From the IMG/VR virus record IMGVR_UViG_3300044635_000343, positions 1-25,131 of that record: a DNA stretch of 25,131 bases; one strand, given 5' to 3'. Below, piece by piece: positions 2 to 15,686 of the stretch. Below the pieces are notes generated by a model. That model was not told where the DNA came from and searched no databases. It worked only from the letters and a program-made list of their open reading frames with translations. A program made the position numbers and the translations under genes. Every line of letters begins with the position of its first letter. Positions within the stretch are counted from its first letter, which is position 1. Source of the DNA: a virus.

Positions 2-2200
2 CAATACACCGATTACCAACAACTCGGACTGAAAGTCATCCCTATACAATGGGATACTGAAACAAAGCAACCCGTATCACATCGCAACTGGTCTAATCCC
101 GATGACTTGCATCTACGCCCTACTGATAATGGGTTAATGATTCTTACAGGCAACAACTACGGATGCCTTGACTTCGACCTGAAGAATACAAAGGATAAAG
201 AACTATTCAGCAAGTGGATGGCAATTATAACCAACGAAGCACCCGAAATCTTCAGCAAGGTTTTCATTGAGCAAACCCGCAACGCAGGATACCACGTATG
301 GTTAAACTATGCAGCACTACCGAGCAAAACACCGCTTGCAGAATCGCCAGAGGGTAACGAGGTAATTGCCCTTTATTCTAATGGCCCGGTAGTTTACACA
401 TTTCCAACACCCGGTTATACAGAATTTCACCAAAGTATGGAAGATGTGCAGGAATTAACTGAAAGTGAGTATAACTACCTAATAGAAGTTTCACAATACT
501 TTAACGAGTACAAACCCAAGTACGACCCGACAAAGAAAGCAATCAGCTACCCGGCGGGGTATGAATCGCAGTTGGCAGAATATGACAAGGGTATTACAGA
601 TGAAGCATTCGACACTATTCTGCAATCAATAGGGCTGCTACCTATACAGGGCTACAAGTACGGTAAGAATGATAAGTTTCAAGCCTACCGCCGCAAGGGT
701 AGTGATTCGGCCGGCATATCCGCTAAAGTGTACTATAATGCACGAAGGGTTATGATATTCTCGGCATCCATGAGCAACTTCCCCCATTGGCACAACAAAG
801 ACCAGTATCCGGTGTGGTGTTTGCCGCCATCGTTTATTCTGTTCTACCACCTCGGCAGAGATTGGGATGCCGTAATTAAAGCCCTCGAAATCGAACCTGT
901 AAAACAGGGATACCCGTATAGTATTTTCCCACAAGTTATAAACAATTCTATACACGAAGTTGCAGCCGAGAAATCACTCAATACCGAGTTTTTGGCTACG
1001 GCTGGCCTGTTCACTATCGCATCACTTGCAGGTAACTGCTACTATTCCGAACTGGGTGAAGATGCAAAAAATATTATATTCTCTATTATCATAGCACCTG
1101 TATCGGTGGGAAAAACACCGGCATTTAAAGCTATGTGCGAAACGCCACTACGAGAACTTATGGCACGTGAGGATAAAGAATACGAAGCGGATGTAGCCCA
1201 CTGGAATAAAGAAAGAGCCGATGCCAACGCCAACAAGCAGCCATTCAACAAGGCACACCCCAAGCGGTTTATACCCTTTGCGGTTGATGGCACAACGGAG
1301 GGCTATATCGGGCTAATGCAAGACCAATCGGCGGGCATGGGTATCTACCATGATGAAGCAGAAACAATCCTAAACGCAGGAGCGCACAAAGTAAATAACG
1401 ATGCCATATCTTTTTTCACACAAGCATTCTCCGGTGGTAGGTACACTCAAATTAGGGCCGACCGGACAAAGGAAAGGGTAGTGAAATCCCTTAATATGTC
1501 TTTGTTGATGGGTACGCAGCCCGGCAGATTAAAAAACCTATTCGGGCAAGATCAGATACTATCCGGATTCGCCTCAAGATTCCTGCTTGTACAATCCGAT
1601 TACATTAAATTAAAGGAGGATGTAAAGCTATTTGCATCCACCCGGCAAATGTGCGAAGAGTGGAAAGACCTATTATTTGAACTCTATAAGCGAAATAAGG
1701 CAGTTTGCAGGGGTGAAATGGAACCGTTAAGGATTTATATTACCGATGAGGCAAAACCTATCCTTGAGGCTTATTACTGCCAACAAATGAAAGATGGCAA
1801 CCAAAGGAGGGCAAACAAGGTAGAAGATTACATTTTGGGTACGGAGGCGAAGATGTCGGCATATTACTTAAGATTCTGCCACCTCATAGCCATCATGCAG
1901 AACCCTATGGTACCGTTAATTAATGTTAAGGTAGCCGAGCAGGCATGGGTATTATACAGGTGGTATGCCGAATCAACGGTTAATATCCTATCTGGTATTT
2001 ACACCGAGAATGAATCCGGATTACCTGCAGACCTCCGCCTATTGGTAGACAACCTACCGACAAAGTTTACCATGAAGGAAGTAGTATCTTTGTGTACTCG
2101 GCTGAATATAAAGGAGGCTCGTTTCAAAAATGCCATGCGTAGGCCAGACTTCGCACGGATGTTTAAGAGGGTAGCGCATGGTAGCTATGAGAAAATGTGA
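2..2200 (+). CDS. Primase-polymerase / DUF3987 helicase-like replication protein (5' partial)
   Basis: The frame is open from base 2, so the true start lies upstream and 732 residues are visible. The N-terminal part resembles the bifunctional primase/polymerase (AEP) domain: a GLKVIP segment, a lysine/tryptophan-containing stretch, ILTG followed by the metal-binding-like LDFDLKN, and later RNAGYHVWL, which fits the s-x-H motif. A middle region (about residues 200-310 of the visible part) links to a DUF3987 helicase-like domain with a P-loop APVSVGKTPA (first glycine replaced by alanine), a Walker B-like GIYHDEAE, and TQPGRLKNLF further on. The expected role is priming and unwinding at the phage origin. 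A strong terminator follows, so it ends the replication transcript. A start codon inside the visible sequence, such as TTG at 107, would cut into the AEP domain and is unlikely. Confidence 0.85.
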   Translation, partial: QYTDYQQLGLKVIPIQWDTETKQPVSHRNWSNPDDLHLRPTDNGLMILTGNNYGCLDFDLKNTKDKELFSKWMAIITNEAPEIFSKVFIEQTRNAGYHVWLNYAALPSKTPLAESPEGNEVIALYSNGPVVYTFPTPGYTEFHQSMEDVQELTESEYNYLIEVSQYFNEYKPKYDPTKKAISYPAGYESQLAEYDKGITDEAFDTILQSIGLLPIQGYKYGKNDKFQAYRRKGSDSAGISAKVYYNARRVMIFSASMSNFPHWHNKDQYPVWCLPPSFILFYHLGRDWDAVIKALEIEPVKQGYPYSIFPQVINNSIHEVAAEKSLNTEFLATAGLFTIASLAGNCYYSELGEDAKNIIFSIIIAPVSVGKTPAFKAMCETPLRELMAREDKEYEADVAHWNKERADANANKQPFNKAHPKRFIPFAVDGTTEGYIGLMQDQSAGMGIYHDEAETILNAGAHKVNNDAISFFTQAFSGGRYTQIRADRTKERVVKSLNMSLLMGTQPGRLKNLFGQDQILSGFASRFLLVQSDYIKLKEDVKLFASTRQMCEEWKDLLFELYKRNKAVCRGEMEPLRIYITDEAKPILEAYYCQQMKDGNQRRANKVEDYILGTEAKMSAYYLRFCHLIAIMQNPMVPLINVKVAEQAWVLYRWYAESTVNILSGIYTENESGLPADLRLLVDNLPTKFTMKEVVSLCTRLNIKEARFKNAMRRPDFARMFKRVAHGSYEKM

Positions 2201-2256: not shown

Positions 2257-2286
2257 CCCCCGGCGTTTCTACGTTGGGGGTTTTTT
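2257..2286 (+). terminator. Intrinsic terminator after the replication gene
   Basis: Five C and five G form the base of a 10-bp stem (two G-T pairs inside) with a TTCT loop, followed directly by six T. It lies 57 bases after the stop codon and separates the replication transcript from the control region and late operon. Confidence 0.85.
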
Positions 2287-2356: not shown

Positions 2357-2375
2357 TATCGGACAAGTTCCGATA
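2357..2375. repeat. Short inverted repeat TATCGGA/TCCGATA
   Basis: Two 7-base arms separated by 5 bases, with the first AAGTTC copy lying across the spacer and right arm. It could be a protein-binding dyad at the left border of the repeat cluster. Confidence 0.5.
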
Positions 2376-2454
2376 AATGCCTGTATTTATACCAATAGTA
2401 TGAATATGAGCGATAAAGCCAACTTTTGTGATTGATAAAACGAAATAAGTTCAG

Positions 2455-2488
2455 CAAAAGTTCAATAAGTTCAGTGGGTGAACTTTTG
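2455..2488. repeat. Perfect 10-base inverted repeat CAAAAGTTCA/TGAACTTTTG
   Basis: Arms at 2455-2464 and 2479-2488 are exact complements. The 14-base spacer contains a third copy of the core (AATAAGTTCA, overlapping the left arm by one base). It is the longest perfect dyad of the cluster, suited to a dimeric DNA-binding protein or a cruciform. Confidence 0.6.
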
Positions 2489-2518
2489 TAACTAATTGAT
2501 ACTCATAAGCTAACTGCC

Positions 2519-2544
2519 AATAAGTTCAAAAGTTCGAACTTATT
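2519..2544. repeat. Nested palindrome of the AAGTTC repeat
   Basis: AATAAGTTC at 2519-2527 and GAACTTATT at 2536-2544 are inverted copies. Between them is another AAAAGTTC, so the centre 2530-2541 (AAGTTCGAACTT) is itself a perfect 12-base palindrome. It sits at the left edge of the AT-rich stretch. Confidence 0.6.
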
Positions 2545-2687
2545 AGAGAATAATAATTTAATACTCTTATATATGAATATGTATAATATAAAGGAGATAA
2601 CGAACAAAAGTGAACTTTTTGAACTAATCGCTGATTGTCAATGTGTTACGTGATTTTTTGGCGAACTTTTGGTGAACTTTTTGAACT

Positions 2688-2720
2688 TTTGGTAGTTAGT
2701 GTGAATTATGGGTAACTTTG
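2688..2720 (+). promoter_or_regulatory. Bacteroidota-type promoter for the late operon
   Basis: TTTG at 2688-2691 and TAACTTTG at 2713-2720 match the Bacteroidota -33 (TTTG) and -7 (TAnnTTTG) elements, 21 bases apart. The first late gene starts at 2742. The -33 element lies inside the last GAACTTTTG repeat, so a protein bound to the repeats would be expected to affect this promoter. Confidence 0.6.
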
Positions 2721-2741: not shown

Positions 2742-3011
2742 ATGGCAAAGGGAAAAAAGACTGGAGGCAGAACAAAGGGGGCAGTAAATCACTTTACCCG
2801 CTCAGTACGTGAGGTTATTACTGATGCGTTCCACGAAATGCAACTGAAGCCGGGGGTTAATATGTTGGAATGGGGAGAGCAAAACCCAACCGAATTCTAC
2901 CGCCTGGCATCCAAACTCATCCCGCTACAGGTAGCCAATGATCCCGACAACCCAATGCCGACTACCATCATCCAAATCATCCCCGACACCAAATCACACC
3001 CCATTGTATAA
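2742..3011 (+). CDS. Putative small terminase-like DNA-binding protein
   Basis: An 89-residue basic protein. The N-terminus (AKGKKTGGRTKGAVN) is the Gly/Arg/Lys-rich head found in many small phage proteins annotated as terminase small subunits or as DUF5681-like. The rest is helical, with the segment NPTEFYRLASKLIPLQV typical of these proteins. It is the first gene behind the late promoter and about 5 kb upstream of the large terminase. Small and large terminase genes are usually adjacent, so this distance is odd and reflects the block of glycan-type genes in between. The role would be recognition of phage DNA for packaging. This is assigned from N-terminal pattern and position only; a general DNA-binding protein is equally possible. 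Confidence 0.5.
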   Translation: MAKGKKTGGRTKGAVNHFTRSVREVITDAFHEMQLKPGVNMLEWGEQNPTEFYRLASKLIPLQVANDPDNPMPTTIIQIIPDTKSHPIV

Positions 3012-3062
3012 ATTGTGCATCTATTGTGGAAAACAAAAGTGCCGTCTTCAGATGAACCACTC

Positions 3063-3083
3063 CAAAGATATTTGCTATCTTTG
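3063..3083 (+). promoter_or_regulatory. TATCTTTG -7 element inside a perfect inverted repeat
   Basis: CAAAGATA (3063-3070) and TATCTTTG (3076-3083) are exact complements with a 5-base spacer. TATCTTTG also fits the Bacteroidota -7 element and lies 19 bases before the ATG at 3103. I see no good -33 element. It could be a promoter with an operator, an RNA hairpin in the leader of the first glycosyltransferase gene, or both. Confidence 0.35.
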
Positions 3084-3102
3084 TGAAACACGAGCAGAAA
3101 CC

Positions 3103-3762
3103 ATGCACATACATTACAACTTTGCAACACGTAGCAGACCGGAGAAGATGGCTGCCGCATTTGCTACTATTCAGGCATATTCACATTCTAAGAAGTACAC
3201 GGTTGGACTGACCGTAGATGATGATGATACCGTTACGCTCAATTCAAATGAGTTATCCGACCTGCTAAAGTTCCCCAATGTGTTTATCACAATGGGTAAG
3301 TCCAAAAGCAAGGTACACGCCATCAATCGGGGCATGGAAGGATGGAAGGGTGATATAGTTGTGAATATGAGCGATGACATGCGTTTCCTAAAGCAGGGCT
3401 ATGACATTGACATTATCAATGCCTTCGAGGGTAACTTAGACCTATTCATTCACTTTCCAGATGGCAGGGTTAATCACTTACTGCCTACAATGTCAATCAT
3501 GGGCCGCACGTACTATGAGCGGTTCGGGTACATCTACCACCCACAATATGAAAGCCTTTGGTGCGATAACGAGGCGATGGATGTGGCGAAGATGTGCAAT
3601 TCGTATAAATACGTAGATAAGCGGATATTCGACCACTATCACCCGGCATGGACTGGGGAGCCTGTAGATGCGCTGCTTAATCACACTCAATCGTTTTACA
3701 GAGCGGATGAAATAACTTATATCAGGAGATCAAAAGCCGGGTTCCCTAAACAGAATGTATGA
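3103..3762 (+). CDS. GT-A fold glycosyltransferase (GT2-like)
   Basis: A 219-residue protein. After an N-terminal helix (SRPEKMAAAFATIQ) and strand come VDDDD (residues 39-42) and VVNMSDDM (87-93), the latter in the place of the DxD-type metal/nucleotide-sugar motif. LWCDNEAMD (152-160) fits the acidic catalytic region of GT-A enzymes. The expected reaction is transfer of a sugar from a nucleotide donor in the cytoplasm; donor and acceptor are unknown. I start at the ATG at 3103, because the N-terminal strand-helix begins here and TATCTTTG lies just upstream. An in-frame ATG at 2938 would add 55 residues with two CxxC pairs but overlaps the previous gene by 74 bases. The stop overlaps the next start (ATGA). 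Confidence 0.75.
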   Translation: MHIHYNFATRSRPEKMAAAFATIQAYSHSKKYTVGLTVDDDDTVTLNSNELSDLLKFPNVFITMGKSKSKVHAINRGMEGWKGDIVVNMSDDMRFLKQGYDIDIINAFEGNLDLFIHFPDGRVNHLLPTMSIMGRTYYERFGYIYHPQYESLWCDNEAMDVAKMCNSYKYVDKRIFDHYHPAWTGEPVDALLNHTQSFYRADEITYIRRSKAGFPKQNV

Positions 3763-3992
3763 CACCGAAAGAGAAAGCAAAAGAGTTGGTTGAAAGATTT
3801 AGTGAATACTCACATACTGAATTTATTTCTTATAGAGGAGGCTACCAACTTGATACACAAATACAAAATGCCAAACAATGTGCATTAATTGCAGTAGATG
3901 AGATAATTAAATTAGTATCTGATGACTTAGACCTGTATTATAAAGATTGTATTTATTGGGAAGAAGTCAAATCCGAAATACAAGCACTATGA
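3759..3992 (+). CDS. Small hypothetical phage protein
   Basis: A 77-residue, mainly helical protein beginning MTPKEKAKELVERF, with QCALIAVDEII in the middle and a C-terminal YWEEVKSEIQAL. I associate this pattern with small accessory proteins scattered through Bacteroidota phages; no function is known to me. It overlaps the genes on both sides by ATGA junctions, so it is translationally coupled to the two glycosyltransferases. The region is AT-richer than its neighbours. Confidence 0.75.
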   Translation: MTPKEKAKELVERFSEYSHTEFISYRGGYQLDTQIQNAKQCALIAVDEIIKLVSDDLDLYYKDCIYWEEVKSEIQAL

Positions 3993-4531
3993 CCCTATCC
4001 ATCCTCATTTGCACCCTACCCAACCGCATCGGCTACCTTTCGCAGCTATTACAGGTACTGACACCGCAACGTACACCGGAGGTTGAAGTTTTAACTGAAT
4101 CGGATAATGGTACTATGAGTACGGGAAGAAAGAGAAATATACTCCTGCAACGCAGTACAGGGAAGTACGTGGTATTCATAGATGATGATGACATGGTAGC
4201 GCCTACCTACGTTAAAGATATACTAACGGCAGCCGAATCTAATCCCGATGCCATCGTATTTAATGGTACAATGACCACAGATGGCAGGGATGAAAGGAAG
4301 TGGTACATATCAAAGGATTACGGCTATGAGGCGAAGGGTGGGGCATATTACCGCTACCCTAATCATATCGTACCCATTAGAAGGGAGATAGCAATGGCAT
4401 TCCCGTTTATGGATATACGCATTGGGGAAGATTATGCGTGGGCTACTGCTATACATAACGCAGGGTTGATTAAGACAGAGGTGAAGATTGAGAAGGAATT
4501 ATATCATTATCAATTTAGAACTAATAAATAA
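3989..4531 (+). CDS. Family 2 (GT-A) glycosyltransferase
   Basis: A 180-residue protein with a compact GT2 layout: first strand LSILICTLPNRIGYLSQLL, the TGRKRNILLQRSTGKYVVF segment typical of GT2 enzymes, the metal-binding FIDDDDM (residues 63-69) and the later GEDYAW (146-151) that usually supplies the catalytic base. It transfers a sugar from a nucleotide-sugar; acceptor unknown. I chose the ATG at 3989 because it makes an ATGA overlap with the previous stop and places the first strand at the N-terminus. An in-frame ATG at 3947 would overlap the previous gene by 46 bases. It lacks the C-terminal extension and membrane anchors of large GT2 synthases, which fits a soluble enzyme. Confidence 0.85.
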   Translation: MTLSILICTLPNRIGYLSQLLQVLTPQRTPEVEVLTESDNGTMSTGRKRNILLQRSTGKYVVFIDDDDMVAPTYVKDILTAAESNPDAIVFNGTMTTDGRDERKWYISKDYGYEAKGGAYYRYPNHIVPIRREIAMAFPFMDIRIGEDYAWATAIHNAGLIKTEVKIEKELYHYQFRTNK

Positions 4532-4550
4532 TAACATGGCACAACAGACA
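4530..4550 (+). repeat. 21-base start-region repeat, copy 1
   Basis: The sequence around the ATG at 4536 (AATAACATGGCACAACAG plus three bases) recurs without mismatch at 5113-5133, and with one change over 17 bases at 4866-4882. Each copy covers the last bases before a start codon and the first codons of a different small gene. Confidence 0.7.
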
Positions 4551-4847
4551 ATAATACATACTTTAATTAAAAATGATATGTACGTGCAAATTAAACAAGG
4601 CATACAACTTCCAGAAGATTTTCTAATAGATGGAGTTATTAATAGAGATAAATATATTGTTGAGATGGGGTTTTATGATTTAGACAAATGGTATAATGAG
4701 CATCAGTTTCAGCCTACTGCTGAAATAGTCGGTGCTATTGTGATTGGTTCAAATCAATATAATTCTATTAGATACAGGGTTAGAACGGAACATGACAAAC
4801 CCTTTGATTTAGCAAAAACTATTATTGGAAAATTAATAAATAGTTAG
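4536..4847 (+). CDS. Small hypothetical protein (MAQQT cassette 1)
   Basis: A 103-residue soluble protein, beginning MAQQTIIHTLIKND, with no signal peptide or membrane segment. The C-terminal half (QPTAEIVGAIVIG, then YRVRTEHDKPFDLAKTIIGKL) looks like alternating strand and helix. I do not recognise the family. The start at 4536 is chosen because the same start region precedes the genes at 4872 and 5119. An ATG at 4488 lies inside the preceding glycosyltransferase gene. The gene is clearly AT-richer than the surrounding late genes, which suggests a separately acquired cassette. Confidence 0.65.
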   Translation: MAQQTIIHTLIKNDMYVQIKQGIQLPEDFLIDGVINRDKYIVEMGFYDLDKWYNEHQFQPTAEIVGAIVIGSNQYNSIRYRVRTEHDKPFDLAKTIIGKLINS

Positions 4848-4865
4848 GCACTTAAAACTAAAACA

Positions 4866-4882
4866 AATAACATGGTACAACA
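4866..4882 (+). repeat. Start-region repeat, diverged copy 2
   Basis: AATAACATGGTACAACA matches copies 1 and 3 with one substitution over 17 bases, and covers the start codon at 4872. Confidence 0.55.
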
Positions 4883-5117
4883 TAATAACAAATACATTAA
4901 ATACATACTTATATTAATAGCTTTTATTTTTTTTGGTTGCGAAAAAGTAAACACAAATAAAAAAAATAGCGGATTTGTAATTTCAACAGACGCAGAATTA
5001 CAATTAGTAGAAATAGATAGCTGCGAGTATTTTTTTGGAGATTGGGGAAATGCATCGGTATTAACGCACAAAGGTAATTGTAAATTTTGTGAACAAAGTA
5101 AACCAAAACTTAAATAA
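4872..5117 (+). CDS. Small phage-encoded lipoprotein
   Basis: An 81-residue protein with a type II signal peptide: a charged N-terminus (NNKYIKY), a hydrophobic core (ILILIAFIF, residues 12-20) and FFGC, with the lipidated cysteine at about residue 23. The mature part of about 59 residues contains IDSCEYFFGDWG and ends with HKGNCKFCEQSKPK, a His/Cys arrangement (HKGNCxxC) that could bind metal or form disulfides. It would be anchored in the inner or outer membrane of the infected cell. Known phage lipoproteins of similar size block superinfection (Llp of T5, Ltp of TP-J34), but there is no recognisable similarity, so this is only a functional hypothesis. Very AT-rich; one of three genes with the shared start region. 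Confidence 0.65.
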   Translation: MVQHNNKYIKYILILIAFIFFGCEKVNTNKKNSGFVISTDAELQLVEIDSCEYFFGDWGNASVLTHKGNCKFCEQSKPKLK

Positions 5118-5133
5118 CATGGCACAACAGACA
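5113..5133 (+). repeat. 21-base start-region repeat, copy 3
   Basis: Identical over 21 bases to 4530-4550. Here it spans the start codon at 5119 of a different small gene. Confidence 0.7.
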
Positions 5134-5328
5134 TCGGTGGAGTGGTTTGCTGATAAATTAGATGAATTAATACCATTTGTTAATGAAAAAACTGCTATTG
5201 CTTTTAATAAATTGGTTGCACAAGCCAAAGAAATGGAAAAGCAGCAGCATGGAAACACATGGGATGATAGTAGAGTGAACACTTCTATACCATTTGAACA
5301 ATACTACACCGAAACCTACGCCAAATGA
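5119..5328 (+). CDS. Small hypothetical phage protein (MAQQT cassette 3)
   Basis: A 69-residue protein: SVEWFADKLDELIPF, a helix rich in K, Q and E (VAQAKEMEKQQ), and a C-terminal PFEQYYTETYAK. I associate this pattern (T-VEW, AKEMEK, EQYYxET) with small proteins common in Bacteroidota phages; function unknown. The first five residues match the product of the gene at 4536, but the remainder is unrelated, so only the start region is shared. The stop overlaps the next ATG (ATGA at 5325). Confidence 0.7.
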   Translation: MAQQTSVEWFADKLDELIPFVNEKTAIAFNKLVAQAKEMEKQQHGNTWDDSRVNTSIPFEQYYTETYAK

Positions 5329-5924
5329 GATACTCCCAAAACAACGAGCAGGATATAATCTTCGCATACTTCCAATCCCGCAAAGGATTCTTCCTTGACA
5401 TTGGTGCGAACGATGGGGTTACCCTAAGCAACACCTACGCATTGCAGCTACAGGGGTGGAGCGGTGTACTTGTAGAACCGAGTGAGGAAGCGTTCAACCG
5501 CATCTTAGCTAACCCTATGGTACACAAATTCAATGTAGCCATTGGCGAAACGGATGGGCATTGTACCTTCCATGAGATGGGCAATCATTTGGGCAGGGGG
5601 GATGTATCGCTACTTAGTACAATTAAACGCAACGAAACTAAACGATGGCCGTGTACGGAGTTCAAAGAGCGCATGACCGAGGTATGGACATACAACACCC
5701 TGATAAAGAACTCCCCATTCAAATACTTTGATTTCATATCTATTGATGCCGAGGGCGTGGATTTCGAGATATTAGAACAAATTAACCTGAAGCATACGCA
5801 AATGATATGCATTGAGCATAATGGTAATGTAGACTTATTTCACCTTATTAAAGATTACTGCAATAAGGCAGGGTTAACGAAATGCTTATTAACTAACTTA
5901 GAAAACGTAATATGGGCAAGGTAA
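5325..5924 (+). CDS. FkbM-type SAM-dependent methyltransferase
   Basis: A 199-residue protein. FFLDIGANDGVTLSNT (residues 22-37) is the SAM-binding motif I; VLVEP (48-52) supplies the acidic residue for the ribose; FISIDAEGVDFEIL (137-150) is the signature region of the FkbM family. FkbM enzymes methylate hydroxyl groups, often on sugars of polyketides or surface polysaccharides. A glycosyltransferase follows with a 13-base overlap, so O-methylation of a transferred sugar is a reasonable inference. Start and stop both overlap neighbouring genes, which fits co-translation. Confidence 0.85.
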   Translation: MRYSQNNEQDIIFAYFQSRKGFFLDIGANDGVTLSNTYALQLQGWSGVLVEPSEEAFNRILANPMVHKFNVAIGETDGHCTFHEMGNHLGRGDVSLLSTIKRNETKRWPCTEFKERMTEVWTYNTLIKNSPFKYFDFISIDAEGVDFEILEQINLKHTQMICIEHNGNVDLFHLIKDYCNKAGLTKCLLTNLENVIWAR

Positions 5925-6640
5925 CATCCGGCAAAGTAATCGTATCCCTATCCGCATCCGGCAGGGAAAATTACAACGAGGCGCAATTAGGTCTAATCAG
6001 AAGTATAGACCGCAAGGCACCTGATTATGATACGCACTTTCGGAGTGTGGATGGGTATGTGGATGAATACCTCGAACGCAAGATTCACCTCGGTGACTGG
6101 CCCAATACCGAAAGATGGGGTAAGTCATGGAGTCATCAGAATATGCCATACCAGTTTAAACCGTTTATGGTAGCGGAAGCGCTTGAGATGGGATACCGGA
6201 AAATTATTTGGTGCGATTCGACTATTAGAGTACATCAGAATCCCGATCCGTTGTGGGCGTTAGCTGCTGAACATGGAATAGTAGCATGGAACAACGAAGG
6301 GCATCCGCTTGAGAAGTACATCCCCGACCATCAGTTGGAGTTTCTCAAGATTGATTCCGCTAAAGGGATGTATCAGATAATGGCGTGCTGCATTGTGTTC
6401 GATTTCGACCACCCCGCAACTATGCCTATCTTTGAGAAATGGATTGAGGGTGCAAAGGAGAATTGTTTCCACCACAATGAAAGTAAGAATCCGCATTACA
6501 TTAGCAGTCGGCATGACCAGGCACTACTATCAGGGTTGATGAATCTTGCAGGGATTCCGGTGCAGCCGTACGGAGGATTGGCATATCGGCATTATCTACC
6601 TGTTGAACCTTATTTTATTAACTGGGGGGTAAAAGATTAA
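5912..6640 (+). CDS. GT-A type glycosyltransferase, family uncertain
   Basis: A 242-residue protein. KVIVSLSASG is the first strand. GYRKIIWCDSTIRVHQNPDP (residues 94-113) has the strand-DxD-like layout of nucleotide-sugar binding, and ACCIVFDFDHP (158-168) and SSRHDQALLSGL (198-209) resemble the acceptor-side motifs of GT8/GT6-like or nucleotide-diphospho-sugar transferases. No membrane segment is seen, so it should act in the cytoplasm. It overlaps the FkbM methyltransferase gene and is probably part of the same modification pathway. The exact CAZy family cannot be told from reading; the strict DxD is reduced to CDST. Confidence 0.7.
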   Translation: MGKVTSGKVIVSLSASGRENYNEAQLGLIRSIDRKAPDYDTHFRSVDGYVDEYLERKIHLGDWPNTERWGKSWSHQNMPYQFKPFMVAEALEMGYRKIIWCDSTIRVHQNPDPLWALAAEHGIVAWNNEGHPLEKYIPDHQLEFLKIDSAKGMYQIMACCIVFDFDHPATMPIFEKWIEGAKENCFHHNESKNPHYISSRHDQALLSGLMNLAGIPVQPYGGLAYRHYLPVEPYFINWGVKD

Positions 6641-6643
6641 ATT

Positions 6644-6823
6644 ATGAATGCAAGAGAAGAAGTAATCCACAAGCGACAAAGAAAGCAGTTATGGTTGGAG
6701 GTGTATGTAGCTTATGTTGCTGCAGCTAACTCAACAGATAATGATGAAGCAGCTATTTGGGCAGATACGGCAATAGCAGCATTCGATAAAACATTTGCTA
6801 ACCCTAAACAACCCAACGAGTAA
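6644..6823 (+). CDS. Small hypothetical phage protein (59 aa)
   Basis: A 59-residue frame from the ATG at 6644 to the TAA at 6821-6823. It begins MNAREEVIHKRQRKQLWLEV, then AAANSTDNDEAAIWADTAIAAFDKTF, i.e. a basic helix followed by an Ala-rich helix. I take it as real because it fills the gap exactly, its stop overlaps the next ATG (TAATG), and the RxEVIxKRQRKxLW and AxIWAD patterns are ones I know from small phage proteins. Function unknown. Confidence 0.65.
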   Translation: MNAREEVIHKRQRKQLWLEVYVAYVAAANSTDNDEAAIWADTAIAAFDKTFANPKQPNE

Positions 6824-7437
6824 TGGACTTCACCAAAGAGCAATTCATTAACTTTTGGGGCAAGAGCGGATATTACGAAGCGTTTACCTATGGTATAGGC
6901 ATACAGGAAGTAATTAACCGAATTATCTATCCGTTTGGTGGTGTTGAAACCTGTTTAGAAATAGGATGCGGTGGCGGTGTATTTACTAAGGTACTATCAG
7001 AGCAGTTCGATGATGTAATCGGAATAGATGTAATACCAATACATGATGGAGTAAGGTATCATAATGTGAAATACATTGAGTTGGATAACCAAGATTACAA
7101 ATGCACAGGAATAGATGACAACTCAATCGACTTCGTATTTAGCTACGGAGTATTCTGCCATTTCTCAAATGATGCCATCAAAGAGTATCTACAATCTATT
7201 TACAGAGTGATGAAAAAGGGCGGTGATTGTGTGATAATGATTAGTAACTTTGACAAATTGAAAGCAGAGTTCCCCGATTTCGATGACTGGAGCAAGTACA
7301 ATTTAGGAGATAGAATGTTAATCGGACACTTCTACCAAGATGATAGAACGGTGGATATTATGAAACATAAATTCAAAATTGTTAGCCGTAACCTAACACC
7401 CGACCACAGGGATATAGTGGTACATCTAAAGAAATAA
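6823..7437 (+). CDS. Class I SAM-dependent methyltransferase
   Basis: A 204-residue protein with the usual small-molecule methyltransferase layout: CLEIGCGGGVFTKVL (residues 44-58, motif I), VIGIDVIP (65-72), then DFVFSYGVFCHF (103-114), the motif IV region of Methyltransf_11/25-like enzymes, and VMKKGGDCVIMI near the motif VI strand. It is not a DNA methyltransferase by motif, since no DPPY/NPPF or PCQ is seen. The likely substrate is a sugar or another small acceptor made by the neighbouring glycosyltransferases; this is inference from position. Confidence 0.8.
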   Translation: MDFTKEQFINFWGKSGYYEAFTYGIGIQEVINRIIYPFGGVETCLEIGCGGGVFTKVLSEQFDDVIGIDVIPIHDGVRYHNVKYIELDNQDYKCTGIDDNSIDFVFSYGVFCHFSNDAIKEYLQSIYRVMKKGGDCVIMISNFDKLKAEFPDFDDWSKYNLGDRMLIGHFYQDDRTVDIMKHKFKIVSRNLTPDHRDIVVHLKK

Positions 7438-7438
7438 T

Positions 7439-8017
7439 ATGGGCTATACACACGAAACAACACGCATAATAGACCCCTACTTACCACATATCCAATCGGT
7501 GGTAGATTTAGGAGCGCAAAACGATTACCGGGTGCCATTACCCGCACCTTACACTAAAGACAGTTACTATGCAGGCAAAGATTACGAAGCCATTGATATA
7601 TCGGGTGAGAACGGAAGCACCCCGTTGGACTTGTCCGTACTTCACAAGTTCAGCAAGCAGTTTGATTTATTGGTGGATGCCGGAACGAGTGAACACGTTG
7701 GCACCAATGGGAAGCATGACATCAAAGCCATATACAACTGCTGGAAAAATAAACACAACCTCGTTAAACTCGGAGGTTATATCATCTCCGAAAACCCCAA
7801 AACAGGCAACTGGCCCGGACATGGATTCAACTACTACACCGAAGAGTTCTATCGTAATCTGGCTGCAATCTGCGGTTATAACCTTATCAATGTTGGTAGC
7901 GTTGCTGCTATGGGCAATACTACTGACGGGTGGAATGTTTACGCAACTTTACAAAAGACTAAAGAAGATTTTTGTACGTTAACTGAATTTAAGACCTGTG
8001 GAATTAAAACAGATTAG
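7439..8017 (+). CDS. Methyltransferase-like protein (degenerate SAM fold)
   Basis: A 192-residue protein. VVDLGAQND (residues 21-29) is in the motif I position but lacks the usual GxGxG. YEAIDISG (49-56) fits the ribose-binding strand, FDLLVDAGTSEHV (75-87) fits motif IV, and LVKLGGYIISENPKTG fits the following strand. The overall order is that of a Rossmann methyltransferase, so it may be a divergent or inactive member, or a partner of the methyltransferase just upstream (one base between the genes). The last 20 bases overlap the large terminase gene. Confidence 0.65.
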   Translation: MGYTHETTRIIDPYLPHIQSVVDLGAQNDYRVPLPAPYTKDSYYAGKDYEAIDISGENGSTPLDLSVLHKFSKQFDLLVDAGTSEHVGTNGKHDIKAIYNCWKNKHNLVKLGGYIISENPKTGNWPGHGFNYYTEEFYRNLAAICGYNLINVGSVAAMGNTTDGWNVYATLQKTKEDFCTLTEFKTCGIKTD

Positions 8018-13304: not shown

Positions 13305-14252
13305 GTGAGCGAAAACACCCCACCAAAAAGACTACGCATATTGTGGCACGTACAGAGCTACTTGCCAATGGCAAAATCTGGATCCGAATGGAACGCCCAC
13401 AACATCAACAAATGGCTGATGAGCAGAGGCCACCGGGTAAAGGTGATGACCTCAAAGATGAACAATGAGAATTACGAATACGATGGAATCCACGTATTCA
13501 ACCGCTCAAATGATTGGTACTTCCATCATGAATGGGCTGATATAATCTTTACACAATTAGACTTCGCAGGTGATGTAGCTATTGACTGCAAAAGCACAAA
13601 GAAGCCGGCCGTTTGGTTTGCACATAATACTTTCATGTATTCATCCGTTAGAACACACAGGGAGTTGAATGTAGTGTATAATTCGTACTGGAATAGTGAG
13701 GAATGCAAGTATGCTAACAACGGATTCGTACTGCAACCACCTGTTGACATTAACCATTACAGGGGTGAGAAAGGGGATAAGATAACCCTAATCAATCTCA
13801 ATCATAACAAAGGTGCTGAAATGTTCTACCGGATTGCCGAAGCTATGCCGGATAAGCAATTCTTAGCCATACAAGGCGGGTACGGGCAACAGATATACAA
13901 AGAGTTACCGAATGTAGAATACATGGCTAATCAGTCGGATATTCGAATCGCATATCGCAAAACGAGAATACTACTCATGCCATCGCACTACGAATCATGG
14001 GGGCGTACGGCAACGGAGGCAATGGCATCAGGTATCCCAGTTATTTGTACTAATCTCCCTGGGCTGCGTGAGAATTGTGGGGATGCTGCAACCTACTGCA
14101 AACAGGACAGATTAGATGAGTGGGTGGCAGCCATACGAAATGTGGAGGAAAACTACGAAATTTGCAGTAATAAGGCATTTGCAAGGGCAGAACAATTGCA
14201 GCCGGAAAACAATCTAATAAAATTCGAGCAATGGGTAACTACTCTTACATAA
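13305..14252 (+). CDS. Glycosyltransferase family 4 (GT-B fold)
   Basis: A 315-residue protein with a GT4 layout: the N-terminal Rossmann strand RLRILWHVQSYLP, FAHNTFMYSS in the acceptor half, then TLINLNHNKGAEMFYRIAEA at the domain junction and, in the donor half, ILLMPSHYESWGRTATEAMA (residues 222-241), which contains the E-x7-E pair Glu230/Glu238, followed by GIPVICTNLPGLREN. It should be an active retaining transferase using a nucleotide-sugar; acceptor unknown. The start is GTG at 13305, since a TGA at 13287-13289 closes the frame upstream and the first strand would be lost at later ATGs. It lies between capsid terminator and connector gene, which it overlaps by 22 bases: an unusual place for a glycosyltransferase. 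Confidence 0.85.
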   Translation: MSENTPPKRLRILWHVQSYLPMAKSGSEWNAHNINKWLMSRGHRVKVMTSKMNNENYEYDGIHVFNRSNDWYFHHEWADIIFTQLDFAGDVAIDCKSTKKPAVWFAHNTFMYSSVRTHRELNVVYNSYWNSEECKYANNGFVLQPPVDINHYRGEKGDKITLINLNHNKGAEMFYRIAEAMPDKQFLAIQGGYGQQIYKELPNVEYMANQSDIRIAYRKTRILLMPSHYESWGRTATEAMASGIPVICTNLPGLRENCGDAATYCKQDRLDEWVAAIRNVEENYEICSNKAFARAEQLQPENNLIKFEQWVTTLT

Positions 14253-15099: not shown

Positions 15100-15686
15100 T
15101 GGCTAAGGTAGAACTCGACTTATTGGGTGGCAAGGCGGTGAGGCGAATGTTTGCAATAGCAGCCGAAAAGGTAGGCCCGCAACTTGCAAAGGAAATGAAT
15201 GCCTCTGCTTTAACGATTGAGAAAGATGCAAAGCGGTTAGCACCTGCGAACTTTGGGAAGTTACGCCAATCCATAAAGCACAATATTGGTGAGCCGTTAA
15301 TGAAATCGGTATATTCAGAATTAGGTTATGCGCCCTATGTAGAGTTTGGCACGAAATCTAAAGCAATGACAAACCCAATCCATAAAGGGTTTTCAGCATA
15401 TGCCGCACAATTTAAGGGGAAGGGTGAGGGTGATTATGGAGATTTGATATTATCACTTCTTTATTATGTAAAGCGTAAAAAGTTAGCCGGAACATACAAA
15501 GTAAAATCAAAGAGAAGGGTAGGGAATGCTAATCAAAGGTTAGATGAGGATTTGAGAGTGGCAGAACGCATGGCATACTTTATACTGAAAAACGGAATTA
15601 AGCCACAACCTTTTCTTATACCTGCCTACCTCAATGAAAAGCCGAAACTTATTAAACGAATAGTAGAATTATTGAAGTTCAAATGA
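15099..15686 (+). CDS. HK97 gp10-like tail/neck protein
   Basis: A 195-residue protein. The N-terminal part has AKEMNASALTIEKDAKRLAP (residues 29-48) and GKLRQSIKHNIGEP, then SELGYAPYVEFGTKS (about 70-84), the signature of the HK97 gp10 family. Residues 85-170 carry a basic insert (VKRKKLAGTYKVKSKRRVG) before KPQPFLIPAYLNEKPKLIKR, which is the usual C-terminal motif, so the protein is longer than the typical member. It helps complete the neck or tail. Confidence 0.85.
   Translation: MAKVELDLLGGKAVRRMFAIAAEKVGPQLAKEMNASALTIEKDAKRLAPANFGKLRQSIKHNIGEPLMKSVYSELGYAPYVEFGTKSKAMTNPIHKGFSAYAAQFKGKGEGDYGDLILSLLYYVKRKKLAGTYKVKSKRRVGNANQRLDEDLRVAERMAYFILKNGIKPQPFLIPAYLNEKPKLIKRIVELLKFK

Follow-up and report, generated by a model that had tools for sequence, protein, structure and literature searches.

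The window analysed in this work is a 25,131-base contig of an uncultivated virus (IMG/VR record IMGVR_UViG_3300044635_000343). The window carries a gene for a PrimPol-DUF3987 helicase, a terminator-like hairpin, a field of short repeats, an open reading frame (ORF) of 89 residues, and then the packaging and head genes, in that order. The repeat field and its relationship with the helicase encoded directly upstream are the subject of this work. The coordinates of the features at the locus are shown in Table 1.

Table 1. Features at the helicase and repeat field locus of the window (pLDDT, predicted local distance difference test).
Feature	Position	Strand	Remarks
PrimPol-DUF3987 helicase, proposed field-reading initiator	2..2200	+	Start lost at contig end
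Predicted winged helix, codons 676-732, proposed iteron-binding domain	2027..2197	+	AlphaFold2 pLDDT about 83-91; aligned to known winged helices
Predicted recognition helix, codons 705-712	2114..2137	+	K709 and N710 (2126-2131) vary with the word
Terminator-like hairpin and T run, 3' of the helicase gene	2257..2286	+	CCCCC...GGGGG then TTTTTT, read from sequence
Left iteron set	2365..2541	.	8 exact copies, 6 of them AAGTTC; both dyads inside; positions match in relatives
AT-rich core, proposed melting region	2542..2600	.	85% AT; kept in relatives
Right iteron set	2612..2688	-	4 exact copies, all GAACTT
Late promoter, Bacteroidetes-type -33/-7	2688..2720	+	-33 TTTG within the rightmost iteron, 21-base spacer, -7 TAACTTTG at 2713-2720
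89-residue ORF, phrog_11043 (unknown function), first gene past the promoter	2742..3011	+	

The field consists of 12 exact copies of AAGTTC or its complement GAACTT. The AAGTTC copies on the plus strand start at 2365, 2447, 2458, 2467, 2522, and 2530, and the GAACTT copies on the minus strand start at 2480, 2536, 2612, 2663, 2674, and 2683. The first-pass annotation of this DNA, made from the sequence alone, had described this density as far beyond chance, and a shuffle test agrees with that description. Among 200 shuffled versions of the window (first order), the maximum for any 6-mer with at least three letter types was 7 copies per 330 bases, against the 12 copies observed. The whole window contains 32 copies where 11 are expected. 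The finer structure that had been described was also recovered: the two halves of the field are opposed, the dyads at 2455-2488 and 2519-2544 have perfect arms of 10 and 9 bases, respectively, and the core is among the top 0.04% of the window's 60-base stretches for AT content. Positions 2530-2541 form a perfect 12-base palindrome.

The right-most copy had also been reported to overlap the -33 element of the late promoter, and this is the case since the copy at 2683-2688 continues into the TTTG of the promoter (2688-2691). The promoter that overlaps the field has the form TTTG/TANNTTTG. The last iteron leads into the -33 box with identical 21-base spacing in all 16 near phages examined, two of which (contigs L029 and L042) have an imperfect last copy. 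The iteron-overlapping late promoter was not found in the five distant field-bearing phages examined. The promoter type, together with the only hit in the genome collection (a 3-kb contig of a Sphingobacteriales metagenome-assembled genome), points to a Bacteroidetes host. The phage collection contains no near-identical record.

The stretch 3' of the helicase gene was compared among 40 relatives, and this stretch usually bears a field, often with a different word. The words in these relatives are AAGTTC, TTCGCA, TTCTCA, TTTGCA, and ATTGCA. The copies agree within each phage and occupy matching places between shared spacers. Distant relatives, with helicases that are 45-58% identical, exhibit further words that include GGTGTAAA, GGTGCA, GTAACTA, and GTGTTTC. 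A strong field was identified within 1.6 kb after the helicase gene in 67 of 73 loci, some of which are near-copies of one another, compared with none of 92 control stretches taken from these loci. Two of the six remaining loci (L014 and L093) have short flanks. The relatives share the plan of the window, with two iteron sets around an AT-rich core and one field per genome. In 12 contigs, two of which are about 35 kb long, the phage's own word forms no further cluster of the kind expected for a crr-like site. The relative L036 (35,276 bases, with identical 123-base contig ends) looks complete. The first-pass annotation had named a repeat that is not conserved in close relatives as grounds for giving up its proposal. 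The word is indeed not conserved, while the field is, so that this test would have misled; judged from the sequences, the interpretation given below draws its strongest support from the change of word.

Another short element is found in the spacers within the fields of near relatives, for example L042, L032, and L004; it reads ATTGATAATCATAGGCTAAC in the left part and CTGATAATCAATGAGTTA in the right part. This element is kept regardless of the iteron word, and a host factor could bind it. The window has a degenerate version. Several relatives have small ORFs inserted in the vicinity of the field, which itself stays intact. The insertion points vary and are found after the helicase gene (L003, L020, and L025), in the gap between terminator and field (L010 and L015), and between the field and the 89-residue ORF (L036). 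The inserted ORFs include ORFs of 240-277 residues, a small basic ORF on the reverse strand, and a helix-turn-helix-like ORF of 60-70 residues.

The helicase changes together with the word. Phages with TTCTCA and TTCGCA fields differ consistently at three helicase columns, all of which lie inside 12 residues near the C-terminus. The splits between these two classes in the few other families among the close relatives are scattered and unfocused, with mostly three sequences per class. Aligning the C-terminal domains by class shows that the residue pair 709-710 corresponds to the word, where KN is found with AAGTTC, FD with TTCGCA, FN or HN with TTCTCA, VD with TTTGCA, and ID with ATTGCA. The words read tGAACT, TGCGAA, TGAGAA, TGCAAA, and TGCAAT in a common orientation, in which N at residue 710 pairs with A at word position 3 and D pairs with C. 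When overall identity is partialled out, the agreement between same residue and same word is highest at column 709 and second highest at column 710 among the 581 helicase columns tested. KN matches AAGTTC in 49/49 sequences, and N/D matches A/C in 30/30 and in 6/6 independent pairs (p 0.03). The distant phages L116, L117, L118, and L120, whose helicases are about 52% identical and carry KN, also have AAGTTC fields. A tree of residues 1-640 places at least four changes of AAGTTC on well-supported branches, and a single AAGTTC clade is rejected (approximately unbiased test, p 2e-5). Two predictions made from the helix alone were borne out: L003 (FN) has ten TTCTCA copies, and L020 and L025 (VD) have a TTTGCA field. 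These fields lie past inserts of about 800 bases. A total of 44 nucleotide columns separate the two sister word classes: 40 lie in the field and four in the 2.19-kb gene, and two of these four alter helix residues.

The helicase matches Pfam DUF3987 (E 8.9e-30) and a PHROG helicase/primase family, and its N-terminal part has a fold match to the pRN1 PrimPol. No sequence match to the helicase was found among solved structures. The AlphaFold2 models show three parts, namely a PrimPol, an AAA+ part similar to that of MCM, and a winged helix at the C-terminus. Residues 709-710 sit in the third helix of this predicted winged helix, and the third helix is the usual recognition helix of the winged-helix fold. 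The VIA-align comparison places the C-terminal domain among winged helices that include those of MCM and ORC with Z about 6, a value that is commonly reached and indicates the fold type only. The Foldseek hits of the C-terminal model were all common winged helices, and no E value fell below 0.001. The P4 origin-binding domain is absent among the matches listed for this model by Foldseek and VIA-align.

These findings are best read, with a probability of about 0.8, as a phage iteron-type replication origin that would be recognised by the C-terminal domain of the PrimPol-DUF3987 helicase. The comparison of relatives supports the earlier proposal that one protein serves all the repeats. It had been suggested that this protein is possibly encoded outside the window; the likely reader is instead the winged helix of the helicase directly upstream. 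The sequences themselves show the field with its conserved architecture, the promoter overlap, and the way in which word and helix residues change jointly; from these we infer the following course of binding, melting, helicase loading, and promoter control. At each AAGTTC/GAACTT copy, the helicase would bind with its recognition helix, notably with K709 and N710. The opposed iteron sets would place helicase rings at both flanks of the core, the core would melt, and the fused PrimPol domain would prime synthesis. Bound initiator should hinder the late promoter because the last iteron supplies the -33 box, and it probably blocks or times late transcription. The helicase bound at the field may thus also gate late transcription. 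The combined role of origin and transcription switch, as had been put forward, is plausible and is supported in part, namely by the single field per genome, the opposed sets around the AT-rich core, and the fixed overlap with the late promoter.

The origins of satellites provide the closest working model. The C-terminal domains of Rep of Staphylococcus aureus pathogenicity islands (SaPI) and of Cch2 of the staphylococcal cassette chromosome mec (SCCmec) bind iterons directly after their own genes (PMC7581432), and the origins of phage-inducible chromosomal islands (PICI) have two iteron sets that flank an AT-rich region after pri-rep (PMC6092414). The window and its relatives resemble these systems in the position of the field directly 3' of an initiator-helicase gene and in the two iteron sets around an AT-rich region. 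The C-terminal iteron binding is proposed here from the joint change of helix and word. SaPI and PICI are satellites with DUF927 or D5-type helicases, whereas the window belongs to a whole phage with a DUF3987 helicase, its sets are opposed around the core, and its last iteron overlaps the late promoter. The contig encodes a terminase of its own along with a Mu F-like head protein and other late genes; it would therefore work like a SaPI/PICI replicon and is no PICI. A working mode like that of the SaPI Rep origins is, by analogy, the best explanation.

Other systems share single aspects. The isolated C-terminal domain of Cch2 binds short direct repeats just 3' of the helicase gene (PMC7581432), but there are only three 5-nucleotide iterons, the helicase is of another family, and the PrimPol is not fused. 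Closely related geminiviruses have different iteron words, which need to fit the cognate Rep (PMC12548392), although this Rep is a rolling-circle initiator with another fold in plant single-stranded DNA viruses. PrimQH-type primases likewise combine DUF3987 with a C-terminal winged helix; the window helicase is likened to them by domain make-up only, and the paper on PrimQH names no origin or iterons. The alpha protein of phage P4 is a primase-helicase with a C-terminal origin-binding winged helix that acts on the iterons of ori and crr, and P4 replication requires crr as a second repeat site. The window protein may resemble alpha, as its PrimPol and AAA+ parts are recognised by fold and a C-terminal winged helix is predicted. 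The protein families are different, and the contigs surveyed above show no counterpart of crr.

The field might instead be the operator of the late promoter only, bound by the helicase domain or by another phage protein, with replication beginning elsewhere. The fixed spacing between the last iteron and the -33 box in the near phages would suit an operator, as would the location of the field between the early and late genes. However, 8-12 sites over 300 bases with an AT-rich core exceed the needs of an operator, the best candidate for the reader is a replicative helicase-primase, and the five distant phages have fields without such a promoter. An operator role is likely as an added function and not as the sole one, and we consider the operator-only explanation improbable. 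It is also conceivable that helix and field change together as one recombining cassette of neighbours without recognising each other. The helix codons are about 0.1-0.6 kb from most fields, and, taken together, the C-terminal columns have above-average scores. However, none of the 66 variable columns in the 227 bases between helix and field splits the sister classes, columns closer to the field than 710 score lower, and the agreement persists past the inserts and in the distant KN lineages. These patterns indicate that linkage alone does not explain the joint change, and such hitchhiking is very improbable.

Reading of the repeats by another phage protein, for example at a packaging site, is slightly less probable still. 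Relatives encode a phage DnaA domain IV protein, the 89-residue ORF adjoins the field, and a 60-residue helix-turn-helix (HTH) protein was also considered. The 89-residue protein shows 100% identity among phages that use three different words, so it is not the word reader. The DnaA domain IV proteins of L008 (TTCTCA) and L010 (TTCGCA) have an identical recognition region, and this protein was rejected as well; the reader at an origin of DnaA boxes would change with the word, and this protein does not. The 60-residue proteins of L008 and L002 differ by one residue outside the HTH, and this candidate was likewise discarded.

Several findings weigh against the reading of the field as an origin recognised by the helicase. 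The residue pair was chosen from two-class data before it was tested on the other classes, so that the independent tests are the later classes and the two predictions only. Knowing the pair is not enough to predict the word in distant groups, where ET and EV helices occur with several words. The rule, fixed beforehand, gained no confirmation from 15 new contigs since none has a rule helix. Four loci with sufficient flank exhibit weak fields only. The GC-skew minima, a check that the first-pass annotation had suggested, lie 1.9-2.7 kb away from the field and lend weak support only. The 15 new contigs have no AAGTTC field (at most three copies), so no AAGTTC field without KN was found among them. 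The reverse rule, that TTTGCA means VD, fails at long distance, as L202, one of these contigs, has a DV helix and eight TTTGCA copies within GTGCAAA.

Further genes were noted in the window and its relatives. The short stand-alone DnaA domain IV protein of L047 (13570-14004, minus strand) matches Bac_DnaA_C (E 9.7e-22) and has a DHTTV signature, and relatives of it are present in L017, L008, L010, L007, L038, L028, L045, and L016. It may occupy the DnaA boxes of the host or act as a competitor of the host DnaA. The reverse early operon of L047 begins with the gene of a 60-residue HTH_60-like protein (15284-15466, minus strand), a candidate early regulator whose match (E 8e-4) falls short of the curated cut-off. 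A DNA methyltransferase lies between the recombinase and the helicase in L036 (17616-18422). Comparison with L006, L007, L008, L009, and L017 shows that it is swapped for distantly similar versions (28% vs 99% identity) in otherwise close phages. Between the 89-residue ORF and the terminase (3013-8017), the window has an unusual series of genes predicted to encode glycosyltransferases and methyltransferases, and a further family 1 glycosyltransferase is found among the head genes (13305-14252, E 1.2e-16). These genes perhaps modify the virion or host surface.

The field is thus most probably a known working type of iteron origin in a new setting, in which the joint change of site and reader is unusually clear. 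More tentatively, and with a good deal of doubt, a large phage family might shift its origin specificity in near-digital steps, where one or two recognition-helix residues and all 8-12 iterons switch and the late -33 box is kept. Under this proposal, N or D would pair with A or C, and the bases that follow would go with K, F/H, V, or I. The force behind such switching may be incompatibility with sister phages or the escape from satellites. The DUF3987 helicase family, which has been annotated as unknown function or predicted helicase, would acquire a target site and a DNA-binding domain as proposed here. The phages provide a natural series of matched protein-DNA pairs with more than ten words, where the whole set of sites has changed with two residues. 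With this series, a code of DNA recognition and the way in which origin specificity evolves can be tested directly, and the field directly after the helicase gene offers a simple rule for locating origins in many uncultivated Bacteroidetes-type phages.
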